A DNA stretch of 10,760 nucleotides. It comes from an uncultured Prevotella sp. (GTDB lineage: Bacteria > Bacteroidota > Bacteroidia > Bacteroidales > Bacteroidaceae). The stretch spans positions 1 through 10,760 of the forward strand of contig CAMYZK010000052.1 of the NCBI GenBank assembly GCA_947303825.1, in the 5' to 3' direction. Both the position numbers and the translations under genes were made by a program. Below are positions 1-10,760 of the stretch, piece after piece (the first letter of the stretch is position 1; the number at the start of each line of letters is the position of its first letter). The notes beneath the pieces were generated by a model. The model did no database searches. It had not been told where the DNA came from and worked only from the letters and a program-made list of their open reading frames with translations.

Positions 1-329
1 TTGCCCATATAGCCCATAGGGAAGCGCTCGCAGCAGTTGGCCACCACCTGACCGCCGGCCGTGGGCAGCCACTCCGACGGGATATTGTCCATGAAGTAGA
101 AGATGCTGTCGGCCTCTATCTGCGCTATATATTTCTGTATGTCCTCAGTGAGCGACCGCGTATTCTTCTTATACTCATAGTTCAGGGTATAGTAGTCGTT
201 CTCTATGGTCTCTACTTCGCCATAGCCTTTGTCTTCCTCTTTTTCCACCCACTCATCCATGGAGAGCGTGCATCCCGTGAGCAAGAGCAGCAGCAAGGAC
301 AGCATTGGGAAGTTTGCAAACTTTTTCAT
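1..329 (-). CDS. Acidic lipoprotein, N-terminal part (3' end outside window)
   Basis: Only the first 109 codons are present; the frame is still open at the left edge. The leader MKKFANFPMLSLLLLLLTGC is a textbook lipoprotein signal with Cys20 as the anchor. The mature start is acidic (MDEWVEKEED), consistent with a surface-directed lipoprotein. An acidic, Tyr-rich stretch follows (ENDYYTLNYEYKKN), then a likely helix (SLTEDIQKYIAQIEA), then FYFMDNIPSEWLPTAGGQVV, which resembles the start of a beta domain seen in other Bacteroidota exported proteins (recalled pattern, weak). A Cys-Cys pair lies in VANCCERF near the edge. The start at 329 is the only ATG that keeps the whole signal, and it lies 53 bases after the stop of the BIG2 lipoprotein gene, so it is probably the next gene of the same operon. 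I do not recognise the full product. Confidence 0.85.
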   Translation of the reverse strand, partial: MKKFANFPMLSLLLLLLTGCTLSMDEWVEKEEDKGYGEVETIENDYYTLNYEYKKNTRSLTEDIQKYIAQIEADSIFYFMDNIPSEWLPTAGGQVVANCCERFPMGYMG

Positions 330-382
330 ATTATCGGCTTTTTTGTGTTCTTTGTGAAATAACAGACTTATTAACCAAGACA
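330..382 (-). other. Short leader between the two lipoprotein genes
   Basis: This 53-base gap is AT-rich. It ends on the coding strand with CACAAAAAAGCCGATAAT before the ATG, the usual AT-rich leader of Bacteroidota without a Shine-Dalgarno site. An imperfect five-base stem (AATAA / TTATT) is present but too weak to call a terminator. I see no clear promoter, so read-through from the upstream gene is the simplest view. Confidence 0.4.
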
Positions 383-1063
383 TCAGAGGCTCAGGCTGAA
401 CAGGTTGGACAGCGTGCCATGGGCCTCACCGTCGTAATCTATGGTCTGCGGGAACTCCTCGTAGCGCAGCTGCTGCTTGTAGTAGACCCGGAAGGTTACC
501 GTCTCGTCGACACCTTCTGGATCAATATAGCGAATGTCGCTGCCCACGCGGAAGCGCACGTACTGGCGGCCTTTCCACTCCAAGACCTCCCCTACTCCTC
601 GCATCTCGTCACCGACGAAGGCTCCTAGAATCATCGTCTCCGGATTGAAGGGCTGTCCATGCACCGTAACATTGGCATAGACCATCATCTCGTATGGATA
701 GTCGCGGCAGGTGCTTTCCCAGCGGCGCATCACATTAACGTAACAGCTGTCTTCAAGCTGGCGTGACACGCTGATGGCCTTGACCAACGCCCAGCCCTCG
801 CCAACGCCTGTAAACACATTGTTGCTGATGCTGAGCACGGTGTCGGCACTCGATGTCCAGTAGACATCGGAGATGGCAATGGACTCAGGCTTGATGTCGG
901 GCTGCAAGGTAAACTGGTCGCCCACCATGATGTAGAGGGTATCGCGGCCAAGAGCCATCTCGACGGCAGCCACCTCATCCTCGTCAATCTCCATCAGCCC
1001 GCAGGAACCCATTGTCAGGGCAGCCACGAGCATCATGGCTATTCTTGCTGTCTTCTTCATCAT
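383..1063 (-). CDS. BIG2-domain lipoprotein
   Basis: The product is 226 residues. The leader is MMKKTARIAMMLVAALTMGS with the lipobox MGSC, giving a lipid-modified Cys21 and membrane anchoring. The residues just after it (MEIDEDE) are strongly acidic, like lipoprotein export signals that carry Bacteroidota lipoproteins to the cell surface. Residues 38-112 fit a BIG2 bacterial Ig-like domain: DTLYIMVGDQFTL, a Pro-containing turn, VYWTSSADTVLSIS, FTGVGEGWALVKA, and a closing CYVNV strand. Residues 114-226 form a second beta domain with ANVTV, LGAFVGDEMRGV and FRVYYKQ, a pattern I recall from other Bacteroidota exported proteins. Its role is unknown to me. The gene overlaps the FnIII stop by four bases (ATGA), and a second in-frame ATG at 1060 is also possible, so the two are probably translationally coupled. 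No catalytic residues are evident; a structural or binding role on the envelope is inference. Confidence 0.88.
   Translation of the reverse strand: MMKKTARIAMMLVAALTMGSCGLMEIDEDEVAAVEMALGRDTLYIMVGDQFTLQPDIKPESIAISDVYWTSSADTVLSISNNVFTGVGEGWALVKAISVSRQLEDSCYVNVMRRWESTCRDYPYEMMVYANVTVHGQPFNPETMILGAFVGDEMRGVGEVLEWKGRQYVRFRVGSDIRYIDPEGVDETVTFRVYYKQQLRYEEFPQTIDYDGEAHGTLSNLFSLSL
1060..1063 (-). promoter_or_regulatory. ATGA stop/start overlap between FnIII and BIG2 genes
   Basis: On the minus strand the FnIII protein ends ...GTT AAA TGA, and the TGA shares bases with the ATG of the next gene, which reads ATG ATG AAG. If the first ATG is used the overlap is four bases; with the second ATG it is one base. 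Either arrangement usually means re-initiation by the terminating ribosome, so the two proteins are likely made in linked amounts. No separate ribosome binding site stands out. Confidence 0.8.
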
Positions 1064-3366
1064 TTAACAGGAGCTTTAATGGTTACAATGTTTGAAGGCT
1101 CACTCTCACGCCCGTCTTCCATCTGTATCTGGATATAGTAGTGGGCGGTCTCGCCTGCATTCAGCAGGAAGTCGGTAAAGTCGCGCTCACTGGGTTCGGC
1201 AGAGAGCAGGAACTTGAAGCGGTCGTCGTCAGGACCCTGACGCCAGATGCAGAAATACCAGTCTTTACCCTCGGGCAGCTTAGAAGCTTCCCACGCCAGG
1301 CGCGTCATCTTCTTGTCCTCATCGTAGCTGGCAAAGAGCTTGATAGGTGCCTCGAATACCGTCTCACCGACAAAGCGTGTACAGAACTGAAGGCTCAGGC
1401 CACTGCTGACGCCAGAGAAGTTGAACGACTCGACGGCATAGACATACTCCTCGTCGCTATTGACCGGCGGAACATCGGTAAAGTCGATATAGTTGTTTTT
1501 GGCCTTCACCGAGTCGCCATCGCAGCGACGCAGCAGCGTCCACTCCTTGTCGCTGTCTATAAGACGGCGATAGACGTTATGGTAGGCCATCTGCTCGTCG
1601 CTACCCACAATCCAGTGCATGTATATGCCCTTACCATCGACATAGCTGGAGTCGAGGTGGGCAACGGTGGGCGGAACGGCCGATGGACGCAGGACCTGCA
1701 GCATGTCGGAGAACTCGCCAACGTTGGTGGAGTAGTCTACCGCGCGTACCTTATAGTAAATATATTTCTGGTTGACGTCGACAGCAACGGTATCGACGAA
1801 GACGGTGTCACCAGTGACAATACCGTTTTTCCGCGCCATGAACTCATGGGTGGAGTCGTTGGCGAAGACCACCTCGTAGTAGTCGATGTCGTCGCTAACC
1901 AGCGGATGCCATGAGAGGGTAATCAGTCCGTAACTGTTCTCGGAGGTGTCGGGGTCTAAGACTATGGATGTCTCTGCCCTGAGGCCTGTAGGGGGCTCAG
2001 GAGCCTTCATGTCGCTGACACGTAGCAGCTGCGGAATGGAGTAGCTCACGTTCTGTGCCGTGTCGTAGGCTGCCATGACAAGCTGTCCAGTGACAAGATT
2101 GGTCACATCGACAGTTACCATCGTGTCGGTAGGTGCCAGAGGCTTGTCTACCAGCGGACGCCACTTGCCTTCGGTGATACGCTCGTGGAAGTACATGGGA
2201 ACACAGCCCACGAAGTCGGCTTCGAGGGTATCCTTCACAAAGTGGATATTGGCAAAGACCTCCTTGCTGGGATCGTCTTCATTGCGGCGGTCTATCTCTA
2301 TCCATGTGAGGCGTGGCGGAGTGGGAGGCACCATGTCTTTGATGGTGACGGAGTGTACCGGCGAGGGGCTGGTGAGCTCGCCGAAGGGGTCGTGGGCAAA
2401 GACGCGGTACTCGTAGGTGCCGGGCTTGTCAACATGGTCACTGAAGAAACAGTCGCCACCCGTCACACCGTTCATGATGATGTACGGACGCTGTGTGAGC
2501 CGCTGCCACTTTCCGCCTGCCTCGCGACGCTCCACCTCATAGCTGGAGAACACACGGTCTTCCCATGTGATGAAGATGCCGTTGGGATAGGAGATGGAGT
2601 CGCTGAGCTGCACGTCGAAAGGCTCCGGCTTGAACTTCACGTTCTGCACGCTGTCCTTCACGCCCACACGAATGGGCACTCGGTTGGTAGAGTCGTAGAC
2701 GGCGGGTCTCACAAAATAGCTGTAGTAGCTGCCTTTCTTGGCTGTGCGGTCAACAAAGCGCATGGCCAGACGGTTGGCCAAGTCCTGACGCCACTCGCTG
2801 GTCAGCACTGCCACACCATACTGCAACTGCTGATCCTGGCTTATCTCGTAGAACGAACCCATGGAGCCTTCCTCGTCCTTTGTCTGGTCGGGAGTCATCT
2901 GGTCAAGGTTGTAGAGCGACCCCATGGCCAAGCCTGCAATGGAGTCATCCTCAGGATAGAGGGCACGGAACTCGTCGAGCGTAGCCGGCTTGAGCCCCAA
3001 GACGAGGGTGTCCTCCTCCATGGTCTTCTCGTCCATACGGACAATGGTGATGCCCACACGATTAAGGTACTTCCACGCCACATAGTCGTCTACTGCCCAT
3101 CGCAGCACCACAGAGTCGCCATAGGAGCGGGTCATCAGATTGATTTTTGCCCGCATGTCAGTGCGCTGCTTTGCCTTCAGCTCTTCATAGAAGGCAGTGG
3201 TGTCGCGTATCTCGCCTGGCAGGTATTTCATAACGATGTCGGTATCCTTATCGTCGGGGGTGGCATGGCCTGCTTTACCGATTCCGCCAGTAAAAGCCAT
3301 GCTGATAGAAGTACCGGCAAGAACCAGAACGGTGAATAGGGCAGGTATGTTTATTTTCCTTTTCAT
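1060..3366 (-). CDS. Secreted multi-domain fibronectin type III protein
   Basis: The product is 768 residues. I chose the ATG at 3366 because it opens a clean signal peptide: MKRK, then a hydrophobic core IPALFTVLVLAGTS, then SMA with likely cleavage near residue 24. The frame extends upstream to a TTG at 3417, but that lies in the heptamer repeat and would put a charged leader before the signal. Residues 75-240 form an N-terminal module starting with YGDSVVLRW and containing an acidic insert (about 110-175). FnIII-like units follow at about 248-343, 345-450 (degenerate), 453-559, 562-663 and 668-764. They show the usual pattern: Pro-rich linkers (VPPTPP, APEPP), a mid-domain Trp (ITLSWHP, IYMHW, RLAWE) and a Tyr-x-Tyr-x-Val/Ala strand (YEYRVFA, IYYKVRAVD, YVYAVES). 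There is no lipobox, membrane anchor or type IX C-terminal domain. It sits between the giant gene and two lipoproteins, so it probably binds one of them. From memory, giants of this type often have an FnIII neighbour in Bacteroidota; this is unverified. Confidence 0.88.
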   Translation of the reverse strand: MKRKINIPALFTVLVLAGTSISMAFTGGIGKAGHATPDDKDTDIVMKYLPGEIRDTTAFYEELKAKQRTDMRAKINLMTRSYGDSVVLRWAVDDYVAWKYLNRVGITIVRMDEKTMEEDTLVLGLKPATLDEFRALYPEDDSIAGLAMGSLYNLDQMTPDQTKDEEGSMGSFYEISQDQQLQYGVAVLTSEWRQDLANRLAMRFVDRTAKKGSYYSYFVRPAVYDSTNRVPIRVGVKDSVQNVKFKPEPFDVQLSDSISYPNGIFITWEDRVFSSYEVERREAGGKWQRLTQRPYIIMNGVTGGDCFFSDHVDKPGTYEYRVFAHDPFGELTSPSPVHSVTIKDMVPPTPPRLTWIEIDRRNEDDPSKEVFANIHFVKDTLEADFVGCVPMYFHERITEGKWRPLVDKPLAPTDTMVTVDVTNLVTGQLVMAAYDTAQNVSYSIPQLLRVSDMKAPEPPTGLRAETSIVLDPDTSENSYGLITLSWHPLVSDDIDYYEVVFANDSTHEFMARKNGIVTGDTVFVDTVAVDVNQKYIYYKVRAVDYSTNVGEFSDMLQVLRPSAVPPTVAHLDSSYVDGKGIYMHWIVGSDEQMAYHNVYRRLIDSDKEWTLLRRCDGDSVKAKNNYIDFTDVPPVNSDEEYVYAVESFNFSGVSSGLSLQFCTRFVGETVFEAPIKLFASYDEDKKMTRLAWEASKLPEGKDWYFCIWRQGPDDDRFKFLLSAEPSERDFTDFLLNAGETAHYYIQIQMEDGRESEPSNIVTIKAPVK

Positions 3367-3406
3367 TTTTCTGAATATGATAGGTTCTACATTCAATCTT
3401 CGACGT

Positions 3407-3459
3407 TCAATGGTCAATGGTCAATGGTCAATGCTCAATGGTCAATGGTCAATGGTCAA
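3407..3459. repeat. Intergenic heptanucleotide tandem array (TCAATGG)
   Basis: Seven head-to-tail copies of TCAATGG on the plus strand (CCATTGA on the minus, coding strand) plus a partial eighth (TCAAC). The fourth copy is TCAATGC. The array starts within a few bases of the giant gene's stop codon and fills over half of the 95-base gap before the FnIII gene. A six-base inverted repeat brackets it: GACGTT at 3402-3407 and AACGTC at 3458-3463, the latter overlapping the stop codon. From memory, heptamers of this kind are common between genes in Prevotella and Bacteroides. Copy number could change the spacing, and perhaps the mRNA structure, between the two genes; that effect is inference. Confidence 0.95.
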
Positions 3460-3461
3460 CG

Positions 3462-6400
3462 TCACTTAAAGAGATACGTCAGCGGATAGTTCAGGGTGAA
3501 GGTGTAGAGCGGGCTTTCGCCGAAGGCACTCTGGTTGACCGTATACTGACAGTTCACGAAGTCGTAGGCGTTGACACGGTAGGTGCTGAACTTGGCACTT
3601 GTCATGCGCTTCCATTCGGTAGTGGAGTTCAAGAAGTTACAGCGTCCGTGTCTGTTCTTCTTGTTCATCGAGTCGCCTGTCACATACTCAGTGCCCAGGA
3701 AGTCGCAGAACACCCACTCTGACATAGCCTCATGTCCACGTGCAGTCTTGTAAGACTTCGCGGCAGAAGAATAGCCCTTCAGAGTGCCCCAAGCAGTAAG
3801 CTTCTTCTTTGCACCCTTGTTCTGCAGCATAGAGCCCCAGACAATCGGGAACTGATAGGCAGGAATCATGATTGACGCATTGTCGTAAGATGCAGTACAA
3901 TAAGTACCCACACGGCTGGAATACCAGTTCTCCATGCCATTGGCCTCGCCAGTAAAGCTCTTGTTGTCGTGGTCTATCTTGTCTATCTGCCTGCTGTACC
4001 TGAATATCTCATTGTCTATTTTATAACTGAGCAGGTAGGGATGGTACATGTCTATCAGGTAGTTCCATACCTTGATGTAATCATAACTGCTAGGCCTGTA
4101 GGTGTTGGCGCGTGGCAGTCCGCCGAAGAAGTAAGTGTACTTGGCATCGTCCTGCTGAGCCAACGGGTAGTCGGCACTCTTGCTCCACTGTGCCCTGTCA
4201 TAGATGGAGAGCTTCTTGATGGTGTTGCGGTCGGTATTGGCAGTATAGGCCAGACCGTTGGCCGACAGCTTACCCTCAAAGACACCACCCTTGTCGGTGT
4301 ATATCAGCGACTGAGCCGTAGTGACATCCAGAGCTATACGGTCGGCGTCGAACTCCCATCCACCCAGGAAGGCGTAGTCGGCCAGATAGGCTATATGGTA
4401 GTACGGGTCGTAGCGGCGGTACTGATAGCCGTTGAGGAAGTCGATGTCGAGTGCCAGGTTGTAGTTGGTAATAGCAGGCGGATTATCCTTCTCGAAATAC
4501 ACGTTGTCGATACGGGCACCCACGAAGGGTTTCTCGTATTGTATGGAATAGCCATTGTTGCCGGTCTTCCAGTTAGAGCCATACGTATAGACGCGCAGGT
4601 TCACAAGCTCTGTCGTTTCTACAGTAGCCTTGCCGCTGACAGTCTTCGACACCTCGTATTCCAGCTTCAGATTATAGTTAGACCCCAGACTGTAGCCTGT
4701 AAGGTCGGACTGCGGTGTCATGTTACAGGTGCTGCTGGTAGTAACCCACTTGTTGCTGCGCTCGCAAATCTTCTTTGAGCCAGAGTAGAGACGCCAGTAG
4801 AGCTTACCCTTCTTAAACGATGTCTTGCTAAGGTCGGTAGTCAGGGCGATATTGGGTCTCCTCATGTCGTGTTCATGGACTATAAAGCTATTGGTATTCT
4901 TCAGGCTGTTGTAATACGACGGGTAGGCAATGGCCAAATAGTCTTGCAACTCGGGGCAGTCGCCAATGGCCTTGGTAGAGCCGGTGCGGAAGTAGTAGGT
5001 CTTGCTCTGCGACCAAGCCTTGTTGACGTATCTCTTCAACGACTGGTCATAGTTCAGCGGGTCTACCTCCCTACCATTTTGTATCTCCTTCGCATATCCC
5101 GTAACCGTCATCATGTAGTAACGGTTGGCATTAAGCTGGGTGATGTCGAGCAGGTTGTTGGTACCGTCACTGCTCTTGATGTAGAAGGTACGCTTGCTGT
5201 CGGGATGATCCCTCTTATAGATGGTATTTGGCAGGCTCTTGTATTCCTTGACGGTTACCGAATAATTGGCTCCCGAGCGGAAGATAAACGTGCGGCTGGC
5301 CTGTGCCTCAAGGTCACTGGCATCACCATCGTAGTTCTTGCGCATACGTGCCAGCTCTGTCTGATCGAGCACACGGAACGGCTGTTCGAGCGGAGCCTGC
5401 GTATAAAGGTACGGACGTGTGAGCAGCTTGGGGTCGATGGCGTTATCTTCCTTCCAGCCCAGTTCCTTGTCGGCATATCCTATGCTCAAGTCGCCGAAGA
5501 GCTCGAAGTTGTCGAGGGCGTTGCCATAGAACAGGTCACAGTTCTTACCACACTCGAAGGAGAACTTACGGTTGACGTTGACGAGTCCACCGAAGAGGCG
5601 CAGCTTGACGCGGGCCTCGCCGTCGAAATGGCTGGGCTTCGGTCCCTGCATGCGGAACACACCTCCGATGGCTGCGTCGGCCACGTCGAAGTCCTTCTTC
5701 CAGAAGCCGAGGTTTATCCTCAGACCGAACTTCGCAAAGAGGTAGGCGTAGAGCTGTCCGTAGCCGTACCAGCCCTTGTAACCCGGCGACCCGGAGATGT
5801 TGGTACAATAGACATTGCTGGGCAACTTGATGATAGAAATGTCGAAGCCTGCAGTGGCACCTGTGTAGAGGTAGAAGATACCGAGGTCTACATTGATGTA
5901 GCCCCATACCTGTGCACCGAACATCACACCACCGCCAATCTGCTTGATCTGGTCGTTGAACTCCTTCATGGAGGTCTCGCGGGCACGGTTAGCCTTGCTT
6001 ACGTCGGCTCCCTCGATACCCTTGCCGTCACCACCTCCGTTGAGGAACTTGCGGATGTCCTGCGGGATGTCGGGCAGCTTGCCGTTGTTAGGCAGCTCAT
6101 TACCCAGGCAAACGTAGCCATTGGCACCGAAGTCAACGCTGACAATCTTCGACTTGAACTTCAGGTAGGTGTACGAGCAACGCTTCTGGAAGTCGGGTTC
6201 GCCGAGGTAGAGGTGCCAGTGCGGCTTGCTATAGGAAGTGCCCTTCTCCTTCCACGTCACCTTGACCTGCAGGGAGATGTGTGCACCCATAGAGGCGGAG
6301 CAGGAAGAGCCGTTCTTAGAAGCCTTCGACTTGTCGGGCGTGCCCTCCTTCTCGTCCATGTCCTTGAGCGAGCCTGTCGGATCCATCTTCTTCAGTGCCT

Positions 6401-9400
6401 GGTAGCCGCTGTTCAGCTTCTTCTTCAGGTCGCCGAGCTTACCACTCATGCCCACGGTGCCGGCAGCAGCGGCAGCGATGGTCTCGGCATCGGCCTTGGC
6501 ATCGACAGTGATGTCTACCTGCAGATACTTCGTAGAGTTGTTGTTTTCGTATATCAGGTTGGCCTGTGCCTTGACAAGGCCGCTGACAGCCTCTATACTT
6601 CCATTGAACAGGAAGGTGGACAGACGCTTGTTCTTCGTGTCATAGATGACGGTCATCTCCATATCTGCCTTCAGCATAGACTGGCCGGCCGTCGTCGACA
6701 GGCCTAATCCTGCCACGACACCAATGAGTCCCTTCTGCGGCGTACAGCTGTCAGTGCCCTTACGACTACAGTTGTAGTAGAAGCCTGCTGTGATACTGTT
6801 GATGACCACGGGATCGCATCTCACGCCCACGTTGCTGGCCATCTTCGCATAGAAGAATCCGTAAGAGTAGGTAGAGCTGCCGCTCTTGTTCTTATAGTAG
6901 CCACCACTGGCGTCTACAGAGAAGAGGTCGCCCGGCATCTTGAACCTGATCTTGCCGGTATAGCCCTCCTTCGACTTGTCGTTCTTCTCAATGGTGAGGC
7001 TGCCGGAAAGTTCCATGCCGGCAAACTTGCTGTTAACGCTGACACTCTTGAACTCCGTCTTGTCGTAGCTCATCTTGATGCTCGAAAGCTTGGTCAGGTC
7101 GCTAGGCAGCGTGACATTGGCGTTGATGGTGATGCCGGCAGAAGCCCCCAGCTCAATACCGTCGATAAACTTGATAGAGCCCTGGATGTCGGCAGAGAGC
7201 TTCTTGTTGTTGTAGTTGAAGTTATACTTGTCGAGCGAGAACGTGAACGGGCCAAGCTTCTTCTCGGCAGAGGCCAGCGACCACTTACCTGTGTGGAAGT
7301 AGACCTTGCCGCTGGCAAAGGTAAACTCCTTGCCCTGCCACTTGATGCTACCCTTCAGGCTAGCGTTCTTAGCCTTCTTCTGCATGTCGCTTTCGTACTT
7401 CGACGTCCACGACGAGCTGCAGTTGGCAAGTCGCATGCCACAGAAGTGCACTCCCGGAATCTCAAACTTCATCGGGAGGCTGGAGTTCTTTATCTTATTG
7501 TTTAGGTAGCTTGTACCGCCGATGGTGATGTCGCCACCCATCATCAGCTCTACCTTTGTATCCTGACTGCTACCAGAGGGTACTGACTCCAGAAGGAAGT
7601 AGGTCTGGTCTTTGTTGAATTTAGCCTGAGCCAGGAAGAAGTCGAGCGAGAGCCCCTCCACCTGCTGGGTCTTGAAGATGACGGCATACTGGCCAGAGTT
7701 GCTGGTGTTCGACGTCATCTTCTTCATCTTACAGTCGTAACCTATCTTGCCGTCGAGTAGCGGTACGGCTATCTTTCCGTTGAAGCCGCAGTCGTTGAAG
7801 TTGTTCTGTATGAAGGAGGCGTAGACCTTGTCAAGGGTGAACTCCCAACCACCGACCTTACCTGTCTTGGCAGAAATGATGTTGGCAGCGCTGACGGCGA
7901 GCGTAGCTCCCGACTTGTCGAAGAACATGTTCTGCGCCTTTATCTCCAGGCGCTTGTCACCCTTCGTTCCTATCTCCAGCGCCTTGGGGAACTTGACACC
8001 TATCTCCTTGATGAACAGTCCCTGCCAGTCTTTGTCGCCAGTCACCTTATACGACTTTCCTTCCTTATCAGTCACGACACCCGTGAGGCCAGTCTTATTC
8101 TTGTCGTAGCCCTTGGGGAAGCTGCCCATCCTGTTAGAGTTGCGATAGTAGCTATGGTCGTAGACAATATCGGAGGCAGTGAACGTCCATCCAGGCAGAT
8201 CCTTGGCCTGGAACGGGTCGATGGTGATATCGTCAACCATCCAGTCGTCCCAGTCAGCAATGCTGGCCCTCACGTTGAGTATGGGGTTTTCTTTCGTCGG
8301 ACTACCGTTGTTATCCTTCACCAGACCAGGAATCTTCATGTCCATGTCTATGCCCAGGATTTCAAACTTGTCGTCGTGCCATGCAATGTATGTGCCATCC
8401 TCTGGCTCCAGCACATTCTTCGGAGCCTTGAAGGTCATCTCATACGATGACTTCGGGTCCTTGATGGTGAAGTCGGAGAGCAGGGCCACTGTTCCCGACT
8501 CTGGCAGCACGCGGTTGGGCGATATACACAGGCGCGGTGCTCCAAGCACAAGGATGTCGTTCTTAGTGTATTTGGAATTGGGCAGTGTGAACTCACCAAG
8601 CACATCCATCGTAGCGTGTGTGGCAGCGAACTTCATGCCCACAATCTGTATGTCTACCGGAGACTTGTTAATAGACTTAGGCAGAGCCAGCGGCATGTAG
8701 AGGTCTTTCACCTCGCCGGTGAGGAATGCGTTGACCACAGCCTGACCTTTCTTCACGTAGCCGTAATACTTAGCCAGGTCTATCTTCTTCGCAATGTCCT
8801 TCACCTTGCCGGTAGTGGCACTCTGCAACTCATTGGCGTAAGGTATGCCCGTGTCGCTGATGAGGTTGTCGATACCCCAGTCAGAGAAGAGCTTGTCAAC
8901 GACCTGAATACTGCTCAACTGCTCATTATTACTATAGGAGGCAGCTGTTCCGTCGTAGACATAATTCTCTGTATTTATCTTAAGGTCGTCGAACTTCACG
9001 CAGACATGTACCTTCATGCCCAAGGGCTGCCACAGCACATGGCCCTTGCCTTCCCAGGTGTCTTTCGCCTTGCCCGCCTTTATTTCGTCGATAGTCAGCT
9101 CATACTCGCCTATCTTCACCTTCTTGCCCTTCAGGTCGGATGCAGAAGCAGTAGTAGGCGTAGTGTTCTTGATGTCTATCATGTTAGAACACTGGAAGAA
9201 CTTCTTCGACAGCAGTTCAATGAGTGCGAAGTCCTTTATGTGTGTGCTGTCGCCCGTGAAGGCCACCGACGAACCCTTGGTGACAACGGGGTTGACACGC
9301 AGCACCATGTAGGTGCCGTTCTCCACCACGTCCTTTATCTTCTCCCAAGGAATGCTGTCTTCCAGCTCAGTGGTACGATTTCTGTATATAGGTTTGGTGG

Positions 9401-10760
9401 CCAGCGCAGCCTCAAGGTTGCATACCTGCTGTCCGCTAAAGATCTCCACATCGTATGCAAACTTGATGGAAGCGTAGTCCTTGCCTTCGCCACCTCTGTA
9501 CATCGGCTCTATCCACTCCACCTTGAGGTCGTTGCCAATGAACATCTTACGTGCGCCACCCTCCTCGGGGAACTGTGGCTTGGTAAGCGTTGGCAGAGAG
9601 AAGGAGTAAAGCGAATCCTTAGAGATAAGTCCGCTCAGGTCATCGTCGCCCCACTCAAAGTATGGGTCTTTGTCCTTATCCTTATCTTTGTCCTTATCAC
9701 CGCCTTTGTCGCCGCCTTTGTCGCCGCCTTTGTCGCCACCTTTGTCACCACCTTTGTCACCACCTTTGTCGCCACCTTTGTCCCCGCCGTTGTCGCCACC
9801 TTTGTCGCCACCTTTGTCGCCACCTTTGTCGCCACCTTTGTCACCGCCTTTGTCACCACCGTTGTTTTCCCCAGTGGTATCGTCATCCTCCATGTCGCTG
9901 GTCTTCACCCTGAACAGGCGGAAGGTAGACTTTCCTTCGTTCTCCAGCATGACATAGTTAAGCACATTGGTCGATGTGCTGGTGGCTGTCACCTGTGCAG
10001 CATATATCCTGTCAGTATAGAACTGTGAGTTAATGACAGTAGTAGGAATAATGCACTGTGCTGCCAGAAGGTTGTCGGCCTTATAGACGATGGGGTTGCG
10101 CTCAATGGCATCGTCGGGGTTCTGGTTCTTCATCACCTCGACAATCTTGAAGCTGTACTTGAATCCCATTGCTGCCGGGTTGCAAGCTATCACCGGCTGC
10201 GTCCAGGTGAACATTGGCGTCAGCGCATCGAGCACTGCCACGTCTTTGTTCTCCAGCGAGAGGCTGGTAGACACAGGTGTGAGGAACTGTGGAGCCTGTG
10301 CCTTATAGCATACGGTGAACTGCGCCTTTCCTCCAGTAGGATTGCTCACCACAACCGGGGTTGCCAGCTGTGGAGACGACCACTTGTATGCAGTGAGCTT
10401 AGCCTCATACTCACCTTCGGGCAGCAGTCCGAAAGAGCCATTGGTATAGCTCTCGAAGAGTCCCGGTGTGGCACTTACCTCGTTAGAGGGCACATGGTTG
10501 AAGAGCGTCTTCACCTCAAGCATGGTAAGCACACGCGTACCGTTGGCCGCTATGCTGATGGGCTTCATGGGCTGTCGCTTGGCCGGCGTGGTGACGCTAA
10601 GCCCCGATGCAGGCACCGTCTGCTGAATCTGCAAGGCCAGGTAGATGTCCTGTTGCTGATTAGAGGTGTTTGTCAACGTCACATTGAAATACTTGCCCGG
10701 GTCGTTGATGTAGAGCAGCACCTGGGGAGGCAACACCTGTTGCACAGGGGTAACATTGAC
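3462..10760 (-). CDS. Giant TANFOR-like, beta-rich exported protein (5' end outside window)
   Basis: A frame of 2432 residues stays open to the right window edge, so the true start and any signal peptide are missing, probably by only a few dozen codons. Residues are numbered from the edge. Residues 1-150 resemble the TANFOR domain of Bacteroidota giants: a VTP/PP start, NDPGKYFNVTLTNTS, then LPEGEYEAKLTAY and an FTVCY exit. An Ig/FnIII-like module follows (about 153-292, with FTWTQP), then a GGDK hinge (301-356) running into DKDKDKDKD, and a second such module (about 366-530). Residues 530-1480 alternate short hydrophobic and polar segments like stacked beta strands, ending in a lysine-rich, possibly helical stretch (1437-1483). 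Residues 1510-1750 hold a family core (GWYGYGQLYAYLFAKFGLRI, FECGKNCD). The last 660 residues are Tyr-rich and unassigned. There are about 27 cysteines. No type IX secretion C-terminal domain and no enzyme motif is seen. The family assignment rests on remembered sequence style, not a search. The function is unknown; a scaffold or adhesin-like envelope role is inference. Confidence 0.85.
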   Translation of the reverse strand, partial: VNVTPVQQVLPPQVLLYINDPGKYFNVTLTNTSNQQQDIYLALQIQQTVPASGLSVTTPAKRQPMKPISIAANGTRVLTMLEVKTLFNHVPSNEVSATPGLFESYTNGSFGLLPEGEYEAKLTAYKWSSPQLATPVVVSNPTGGKAQFTVCYKAQAPQFLTPVSTSLSLENKDVAVLDALTPMFTWTQPVIACNPAAMGFKYSFKIVEVMKNQNPDDAIERNPIVYKADNLLAAQCIIPTTVINSQFYTDRIYAAQVTATSTSTNVLNYVMLENEGKSTFRLFRVKTSDMEDDDTTGENNGGDKGGDKGGDKGGDKGGDKGGDNGGDKGGDKGGDKGGDKGGDKGGDKGGDKGGDKDKDKDKDKDPYFEWGDDDLSGLISKDSLYSFSLPTLTKPQFPEEGGARKMFIGNDLKVEWIEPMYRGGEGKDYASIKFAYDVEIFSGQQVCNLEAALATKPIYRNRTTELEDSIPWEKIKDVVENGTYMVLRVNPVVTKGSSVAFTGDSTHIKDFALIELLSKKFFQCSNMIDIKNTTPTTASASDLKGKKVKIGEYELTIDEIKAGKAKDTWEGKGHVLWQPLGMKVHVCVKFDDLKINTENYVYDGTAASYSNNEQLSSIQVVDKLFSDWGIDNLISDTGIPYANELQSATTGKVKDIAKKIDLAKYYGYVKKGQAVVNAFLTGEVKDLYMPLALPKSINKSPVDIQIVGMKFAATHATMDVLGEFTLPNSKYTKNDILVLGAPRLCISPNRVLPESGTVALLSDFTIKDPKSSYEMTFKAPKNVLEPEDGTYIAWHDDKFEILGIDMDMKIPGLVKDNNGSPTKENPILNVRASIADWDDWMVDDITIDPFQAKDLPGWTFTASDIVYDHSYYRNSNRMGSFPKGYDKNKTGLTGVVTDKEGKSYKVTGDKDWQGLFIKEIGVKFPKALEIGTKGDKRLEIKAQNMFFDKSGATLAVSAANIISAKTGKVGGWEFTLDKVYASFIQNNFNDCGFNGKIAVPLLDGKIGYDCKMKKMTSNTSNSGQYAVIFKTQQVEGLSLDFFLAQAKFNKDQTYFLLESVPSGSSQDTKVELMMGGDITIGGTSYLNNKIKNSSLPMKFEIPGVHFCGMRLANCSSSWTSKYESDMQKKAKNASLKGSIKWQGKEFTFASGKVYFHTGKWSLASAEKKLGPFTFSLDKYNFNYNNKKLSADIQGSIKFIDGIELGASAGITINANVTLPSDLTKLSSIKMSYDKTEFKSVSVNSKFAGMELSGSLTIEKNDKSKEGYTGKIRFKMPGDLFSVDASGGYYKNKSGSSTYSYGFFYAKMASNVGVRCDPVVINSITAGFYYNCSRKGTDSCTPQKGLIGVVAGLGLSTTAGQSMLKADMEMTVIYDTKNKRLSTFLFNGSIEAVSGLVKAQANLIYENNNSTKYLQVDITVDAKADAETIAAAAAGTVGMSGKLGDLKKKLNSGYQALKKMDPTGSLKDMDEKEGTPDKSKASKNGSSCSASMGAHISLQVKVTWKEKGTSYSKPHWHLYLGEPDFQKRCSYTYLKFKSKIVSVDFGANGYVCLGNELPNNGKLPDIPQDIRKFLNGGGDGKGIEGADVSKANRARETSMKEFNDQIKQIGGGVMFGAQVWGYINVDLGIFYLYTGATAGFDISIIKLPSNVYCTNISGSPGYKGWYGYGQLYAYLFAKFGLRINLGFWKKDFDVADAAIGGVFRMQGPKPSHFDGEARVKLRLFGGLVNVNRKFSFECGKNCDLFYGNALDNFELFGDLSIGYADKELGWKEDNAIDPKLLTRPYLYTQAPLEQPFRVLDQTELARMRKNYDGDASDLEAQASRTFIFRSGANYSVTVKEYKSLPNTIYKRDHPDSKRTFYIKSSDGTNNLLDITQLNANRYYMMTVTGYAKEIQNGREVDPLNYDQSLKRYVNKAWSQSKTYYFRTGSTKAIGDCPELQDYLAIAYPSYYNSLKNTNSFIVHEHDMRRPNIALTTDLSKTSFKKGKLYWRLYSGSKKICERSNKWVTTSSTCNMTPQSDLTGYSLGSNYNLKLEYEVSKTVSGKATVETTELVNLRVYTYGSNWKTGNNGYSIQYEKPFVGARIDNVYFEKDNPPAITNYNLALDIDFLNGYQYRRYDPYYHIAYLADYAFLGGWEFDADRIALDVTTAQSLIYTDKGGVFEGKLSANGLAYTANTDRNTIKKLSIYDRAQWSKSADYPLAQQDDAKYTYFFGGLPRANTYRPSSYDYIKVWNYLIDMYHPYLLSYKIDNEIFRYSRQIDKIDHDNKSFTGEANGMENWYSSRVGTYCTASYDNASIMIPAYQFPIVWGSMLQNKGAKKKLTAWGTLKGYSSAAKSYKTARGHEAMSEWVFCDFLGTEYVTGDSMNKKNRHGRCNFLNSTTEWKRMTSAKFSTYRVNAYDFVNCQYTVNQSAFGESPLYTFTLNYPLTYLFK
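9693..9860 (-). repeat. 12-base tandem repeat encoding (Gly-Gly-Asp-Lys)14 hinge
   Basis: Fourteen uninterrupted 12-base units lie inside the giant gene. The commonest coding-strand unit is GGTGGCGACAAA, and each unit encodes Gly-Gly-Asp-Lys; the sixth encodes GGDN. Variation is almost entirely at the third base of the two Gly codons. Asp is GAC in 13 of 14 units and Lys is AAA in 12 of 13, which points to spread by slippage or unequal exchange. The array runs into a charged DKDKDKDKD tail (9666-9692). Because the unit is a multiple of three, copy-number change alters hinge length without shifting the frame. The result should be a flexible, neutral, hydrophilic spacer between the N-terminal module and the main body. 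It is not an RTX calcium-binding motif. Confidence 0.97.

Follow-up and report, generated by a model that had tools for sequence, protein, structure and literature searches.

A conserved Prevotella gene module around a TANFOR-type giant protein and a candidate outer-membrane barrel partner

SprB and SprF are an adhesin and porin pair of the type IX secretion system (T9SS), in which SprF serves SprB as a docking porin or accessory. Another group of Bacteroidota proteins, those with the TANFOR domain (TIGR02542), was described in 2020 by Jana, Salomon and Bosis as polymorphic toxins of Bacteroidetes; in the set of 339 proteins, SprB, Fn3 (COG3401) and T9SS-tail domains were enriched nearby, and the TANFOR proteins were proposed to be T9SS substrates (PMC7073777). 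TANFOR is also named among the trafficking domains of antimicrobial toxins in the text of PMC11796102. We analysed a contig of 10,760 nucleotides from an uncultured Prevotella sp. (NCBI GenBank assembly GCA_947303825.1, contig CAMYZK010000052.1, positions 1 to 10,760), here called the window, which encodes a giant protein, an FnIII protein and two lipoproteins. The window probably represents most of a TANFOR-type surface-display module, in which a 26-stranded outer-membrane barrel encoded outside the window would export or anchor the giant. Among TANFOR loci the module is a variant of Prevotella type, with two additional lipoproteins and no recognised toxin. Its homology and gene order are solid.

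A scan of the named genomes gave 123 confirmed loci, of which the best 80 were kept and 79 were analysed. Gene order was counted from coding-strand frames and hidden Markov model profiles, and each denominator excludes the loci whose sequence ended too soon on the side concerned. The 79 loci counted were also those from which the profiles were made; the homology found in 48 other loci is independent of them. The greedy gene caller sometimes preferred a longer antisense frame to the real gene, for example in L005, L045 and L139. The order in the relatives was T9SS-type-tail protein, outer-membrane barrel, giant, FnIII protein, lipoprotein 1 (LP1) and lipoprotein 2 (LP2). The giant stood directly before the FnIII gene in 73/74 loci and the barrel before the giant in 50/51, LP1 followed the FnIII gene in 74/75, LP2 was in place in all 70 loci counted, and the tail-type protein lay upstream of the barrel in 20/20. 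Median gaps, measured from the first possible start codon, were 15 bases between the giant and FnIII genes and 49 bases between FnIII and LP1. Beyond LP2, a DUF1573-family protein was found in 16/59 loci (e.g. L014:15485-15904, L016:15420-15830 and L040:15398-15790), and L007:15499-17493 is a tandem second copy of an LP2-family gene.

The original prediction, made from the window alone, had proposed a four-gene envelope module with a TANFOR-like giant, and most of its description held. The genes are regular neighbours, as the counts above show for a real module, so that the condition set for its refutation, homologues seldom adjacent to each other, did not hold; and the four codirectional frames, with gaps of 95, -4 and 53 bases, were reproduced exactly from the open reading frames (ORFs). 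The number four is an artefact of the contig ends: all four genes are present, and the relatives have at least two further genes upstream, for the barrel and the tail protein, which fall outside the window and hence were not part of the prediction. The window is one entire contig (C52 of the source genome, G000) with four long minus-strand frames, which is why the start of the giant and the end of the last lipoprotein are missing; the source genome is fragmented (385 contigs, 2.63 Mb, completeness 70.7%). The giant, delimited by its ORF, its homologues and its relation to TANFOR proteins, occupies 3462..10760 (minus strand; 2432 residues, 5' end open), and its start and signal peptide lie past the contig end, where an export signal had been presumed; its relatives have hydrophobic leaders. 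The predicted export signals of the other three proteins were recognised by eye, as a signal peptide on the FnIII protein and two lipoboxes (TMGSC and LLTGC). The absence of enzyme domains agrees with the finding that none of the four proteins had a Pfam or NCBIfam family above cut-off.

The TANFOR label cannot rest on the NCBIfam model, because TIGR02542 scored only one of 27 window-type N-termini, at E 0.0055 and below its curated cut-off of 67 bits. Across the phylum the same model matched in 8/296 genomes, with a best score of 37.5 bits and none over the cut-off. The label, already present in the original prediction, is carried by profile comparison: the N-terminal region (9771..10760, minus strand; window residues 1-330) aligned with seven TANFOR N-termini at hhalign 99.4%, E 3.3e-21, over 263 columns, and all seven, which come from other genomes, match TIGR02542 at E 0.001. 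By this profile evidence the N-terminal region of the giant is homologous to TANFOR proteins. It runs into a low-complexity linker of GGDK repeats (9672..9866, minus strand; residues 299-363), which falls in the poorly conserved bin of residues 301-400 (identity 0.18); the length and composition of this linker differ among relatives.

The core of the giant (5484..9083, minus strand) is conserved throughout the phylum, window-type sequences aligning with 26 phylum-wide proteins at hhalign 100%, E 3e-100, over 969 columns. About 24 long amphipathic antiparallel strands are predicted in the second half of the core. The AlphaFold model of the core (mf1f29189cc5b) had a pLDDT of 74.7 and a pTM of 0.46, and the giant had no sequence-profile match in the PDB; Foldseek/VIA fold matches of the core had large root-mean-square deviations or TM-scores near 0.1 and were not used for any claim on the fold. 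Alternation along the 24 strands was strong, the mean difference being 2.81, where the barrel has 1.96 and windows drawn at random from the same protein have 1.44. Together with weak fold matches to ApoB100 and LptD, this alternation is what speaks for a module whose task is to move or hold a lipid or other hydrophobic ligand, the strands of the core forming a lipid-binding sheet that feeds the barrel. Such a role is nevertheless highly improbable, as the pTM and TM-scores make the fold matches unreliable and the strand pattern is also compatible with another membrane barrel or with a soluble sandwich.

The C-terminal part of the giant (3465..5483, minus strand) is alignable within the family, and its last 650 residues can be aligned across it. 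Relatives of the giant numbered 157, of which 120 were listed; 29 of those listed carry BspA-like repeats after the TANFOR-type carrier. These repeat-bearing giants have 3850-4770 residues (e.g. P0137 and P0232, the latter named a BspA family surface protein by its source), and in those longer than 3800 residues the repeats start near residue 2830-3030. The remaining 91 listed relatives are shorter and have at most one BspA-like motif. The likeness to BspA family surface proteins is thus confined to a C-terminal addition to a carrier of about 2800-3000 residues, unlike the window giant, in which the Pfam scan found no BspA-type leucine-rich repeats. One carrier type appears to occur with different tips. 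A candidate domain, DUF6603, was found in 2/17 window-type giants (best E 3e-4), was absent from 26 phylum-wide giants at E 0.01, and was dropped.

These C-termini also bear on the idea that the giant is an antibacterial polymorphic toxin with an unrecognised terminal toxin domain and a downstream lipoprotein as its immunity protein. A precedent is L100, where a TANFOR protein with a colicin/pyocin DNase domain at its end (E 3e-16) lies beside an FnIII relative (E 2e-51), with a barrel match about 0.9 kb outside the fetched stretch, and LP2 is highly diverse, which would suit an immunity role. The C-terminus of the giant, however, is alignable across the family instead of being swapped, and where it is extended it gains BspA-like repeats, not toxins. 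No toxin Pfam domain was found in the 17 of 69 window-type giants scanned (E 0.5) or, at E 0.01, in the 26 phylum-wide giants scanned out of 39, and Pfam and NCBIfam gave no recognised toxin domain in the window giant and no recognised immunity gene. A toxin is highly improbable here, and from its sequence we file the window giant as a TANFOR-type relative and not as a polymorphic toxin.

The barrel, the next gene upstream in the relatives, is predicted to have 26 strands, which begin at residue 42 of the model. Its best match among solved folds was the MtrB-type barrel 6r2q_B, at 13% identity over the aligned part. In the model the two resemble each other in strand number and overall fold, a likeness of shape only; unlike the MtrB system, the module has no cytochrome among its genes, and the barrel has no sequence-profile match in the PDB. 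The pairing of a giant surface protein with an outer-membrane barrel of its own also recalls SprB and SprF, with the difference that no PorP/SprF family was found in the Pfam scan of 28 barrels (E 0.5) and no T9SS tail was recognised on the giant. Barrels of 815-848 residues with a C-terminal extension of about 240 residues were seen in nine genomes (L175-L180 and L183-L185), 9-16 kb from the FnIII gene. The barrel frame at L181:1197-2207 (336 residues) looks truncated; a nearly identical start in L182 runs for 766 residues.

In a Prevotella-like bacterium, an outer-membrane barrel that is encoded next to surface-type lipoproteins could also belong to a nutrient-uptake system of the SusCD kind. 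The modelled strands, starting as early as residue 42, appear to leave no space for a TonB plug, and neither the 28 barrels nor the window lipoproteins (LP2 in part only) showed a plug, TonB-receptor or SusD family in Pfam. A SusCD-kind system is already disfavoured, and we give it almost no credence.

The barrel, the giant core and the FnIII protein recur across Bacteroidota and, by sequence, are homologous to parts of TANFOR loci. An FnIII search matched 114/395 Bacteroidota genomes at E 1e-3, many of the matches being generic, and 40 loci were chosen. A giant or its core was present at E 1e-20 or better in 35 of these 40. The barrel lay within 21 of them and on the same contig within 25 kb in ten more (coordinates compared by hand), and it was in or near 34/40 once fusion proteins were counted; in L136, L152, L160, L167, L170 and L171, several of which are short contigs, neither the stretch nor its surroundings showed a barrel. 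Among the loci from genomes found with the TANFOR model, L097 encodes a protein of 2029 residues that is matched by the TANFOR model and also by the profile of the window giant (E 7e-64); it has a barrel (E 2e-61) on one side and an FnIII gene (E 5e-89) on the other, the order of the window. In L098 a TANFOR protein of 1514 residues, with an N-terminal profile match only, takes the place of the giant between the barrel and the FnIII gene.

In four genomes (G322, G267, G216 and G176, labelled as three families) a TANFOR-like domain and a barrel are combined in one predicted chain. The protein of L158, 871 residues long and encoded right after the FnIII gene, has a TANFOR-like N-terminus (E 5e-14) followed by a barrel (residues 460-750, E 4e-17). 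In L155, L156 and L159 the FnIII gene is followed by homologues over the full length, at 33 to 71% identity; no separate barrel was found in these loci, and the barrel profile alone gave no match. When the C-terminal parts of the fusion homologues were compared with the barrel profile, the match was 97.2% at E 3e-11, against 0.4% and 0.2% for the FnIII and core controls.

The alternative that the T9SS is the exit for the giant and its partners, the barrel being only a docking porin or accessory by analogy with SprF and SprB, is rather unlikely, and the fusion proteins take weight from it, as they do from the toxin reading, and add weight to the barrel as exit or anchor. In its favour are the T9SS-type tails of the gene upstream of the barrel and the presence of SprA in 38/38 barrel genomes and in 45/45 genomes with FnIII at E 1e-20 or better, compared with 303/395 overall; T9SS export of TANFOR proteins has also been proposed in PMC7073777. 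SprA is nevertheless encoded in 164/170 of the genera sampled, which makes its co-occurrence nearly uninformative at genus level, and we set it aside, as confounded, as a proof of T9SS dependence. No NCBIfam family, the T9SS C-terminal sorting domain included, matched the giant or FnIII protein of the window at E 1. The tail model TIGR04183 matched 8/20 tails of the protein upstream of the barrel at E 0.01; among four whole tail-type proteins scanned, that of L174 (616 residues) passed it at 23.2 bits (cut-off 23) and three had no match. T9SS involvement of this tail-bearing upstream protein is likely. The Pfam scan of three upstream tail-type proteins gave tail matches at most.

Several observations weigh against the barrel as a dedicated exit or anchor. 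On the giant no T9SS tail is recognised, so that its route of export can only be proposed. The fusion protein has the TANFOR-like N-terminus only and lacks the core; it may be a paralogous part in its own right, and the fold likeness of the barrel is generic, since ushers, LptD and porins also score. Gene order varies outside the Prevotella-type set: the barrel follows the FnIII gene in L101, L137, L141 and L153, lies between the giant and FnIII genes in L133, and is separated from FnIII by 9 to 16 kb in the ten loci that were counted manually. Of 38 barrel genomes, 13 had no listed FnIII match on the same contig within 25 kb; the other 25 rest on listed FnIII matches down to about E 1e-7, from a table of 50 genomes (45 at E 1e-20 or better and five weaker, four of these five added for a nearby barrel), and a further 64 genomes with a match at E 1e-3 lie outside that table. 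The module is also patchy within the window's genus, where the FnIII gene was detected at E 1e-60 in 27/299 genomes (source genome counted), with one to three matches each; it is an accessory element there, and sometimes a repeated one.

Downstream of the giant, the FnIII partner protein (1060..3366, minus strand; 768 residues with a signal peptide), identified from its ORF and homologue searches, had generic Fn3 matches only among PDB sequence profiles. LP1 (383..1063, minus strand; 226 residues) and LP2 (3..329, minus strand) were identified from their ORFs and relatives. LP1 has a weak Big_2-like match below cut-off, and of LP2 the window holds the first 109 residues, with the 3' end open at the contig end, compared with a full length of mostly 750-990 residues in relatives. 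A simple pattern found the lipobox in 57/67 LP1 and 59/69 LP2 relatives. Both window lipoproteins bear acidic residues after the lipobox cysteine, as described from the window, and the relatives are likewise enriched, with means of 3.9 (LP1) and 4.3 (LP2) acidic residues in the next 12 positions against about 1.75 expected from composition. The LP1 profile also matches three upstream tail-type proteins (E 8e-24 to 1e-8; L003 and L004 on G000:C4, L173 and L174 on C188 and C44), with which LP1 shares a domain.

The lipoproteins had been cast as the anchors of the FnIII protein and the giant, and the comparison did not support this as the central idea. Profiles of LP1, LP2 and the upstream proteins had no match at E 1e-3 in the 48 loci from genomes outside the window's family, where the giant, the FnIII protein and the barrel recur, and the barrel is the better candidate for an anchor or exit. 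In the 28 loci where each of the five genes is whole, pairwise identity fell on average from 0.59 for the barrel through 0.48 for FnIII and 0.46 for the giant to 0.38 for LP1 and 0.22 for LP2. Across the five proteins these pairwise values are correlated, with Spearman coefficients from 0.52 to 0.81 and barrel and giant as the strongest pair. A conserved pore with fast-evolving lipoproteins would fit a constant pore whose surface parts are under diversifying pressure.

The source genome has at least three copies of the module. A second, fuller copy on contig C4 encodes two upstream-type secreted proteins, a barrel of 581 residues, a giant of 2845, an FnIII protein of 750 and two lipoproteins of 256 and 872 residues. 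Contig C188 carries a tail protein, a barrel and a giant N-terminus; this copy is distinct from that of the window, with DNA identity of 66 to 77% over short stretches. On contig C44 two upstream-type proteins are followed by a barrel N-terminus cut at the contig end. A search for overlap between C44 and the window found none, and it is a guess that C44 is the missing upstream part of the window copy. The relatives found are labelled Prevotella, Prevotellaceae, Bacteroidaceae or Bacteroidales, many of them from rumen and gut samples; genomes of two cultured isolates, Prevotella sp. P3-122 (L046) and Prevotella sp. 885 (L042), also carry the locus.

The assembly would work as follows in the reading we prefer, that of a display module with a dedicated barrel. 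Sec would bring the giant to the periplasm, and the 26-stranded barrel would export or anchor it. The TANFOR/Ig N-terminus and the large beta-core would form a constant carrier, and the C-terminus its business end, Fn3-like here, with BspA-like repeats in some relatives and toxins in other Bacteroidota TANFOR proteins. The FnIII protein would act as a constant soluble partner, and in Prevotella-type bacteria the two fast-evolving lipoproteins with acidic leaders and the upstream T9SS-type-tail protein would complete the surface assembly. The products may form a complex, and the giant is presumably surface-exposed and may act in adhesion or contact.

Compared with the published TANFOR toxin loci (PMC7073777), the module shares a large Sec-exported protein with a TANFOR-type N-terminus, Fn3 and T9SS-tail neighbours, and T9SS-bearing genomes; this neighbourhood is found in the relatives, the window itself showing only the FnIII gene. 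It differs in having no recognised toxin or immunity gene, in its constant or BspA-repeat C-terminus, and in its two lipoproteins and conserved outer-membrane barrel. The assembly had been called undescribed, which is only partly right, since TANFOR loci with Fn3 and T9SS-substrate neighbours were already in print. The barrel is what is new relative to the main text of PMC7073777, in which the words 'barrel', 'porin', 'Prevotella' and 'lipoprotein' each occur 0 times. The neighbourhood analysis in that text counted known domains, to which a barrel with no family model would be invisible.

The export route of TANFOR proteins, antibacterial toxins included, was left there as an open question for which a model system was called for (PMC7073777). 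A conserved barrel gene beside TANFOR proteins, fused to a TANFOR-like domain in four genomes, is a concrete candidate for that exit. A broader proposal, which we hold only tentatively and consider doubtful, is that the 26-stranded barrel could be a dedicated exit for TANFOR-type giants throughout Bacteroidota and so constitute an independent system of protein export or display, distinct from the T9SS channel SprA. In it the core of the carrier would stay constant while the tips (Fn3, BspA repeats or toxins) are exchanged, and some lineages would have a TANFOR-like domain built into the barrel. With this module, giant genes that occur in several copies per genome and were left unannotated by the family libraries used gain a name. 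In the Prevotella-type version the carrier bears Fn3 or BspA repeats at its tip and no recognised toxin, which points to a possible role in adhesion or contact in gut communities.

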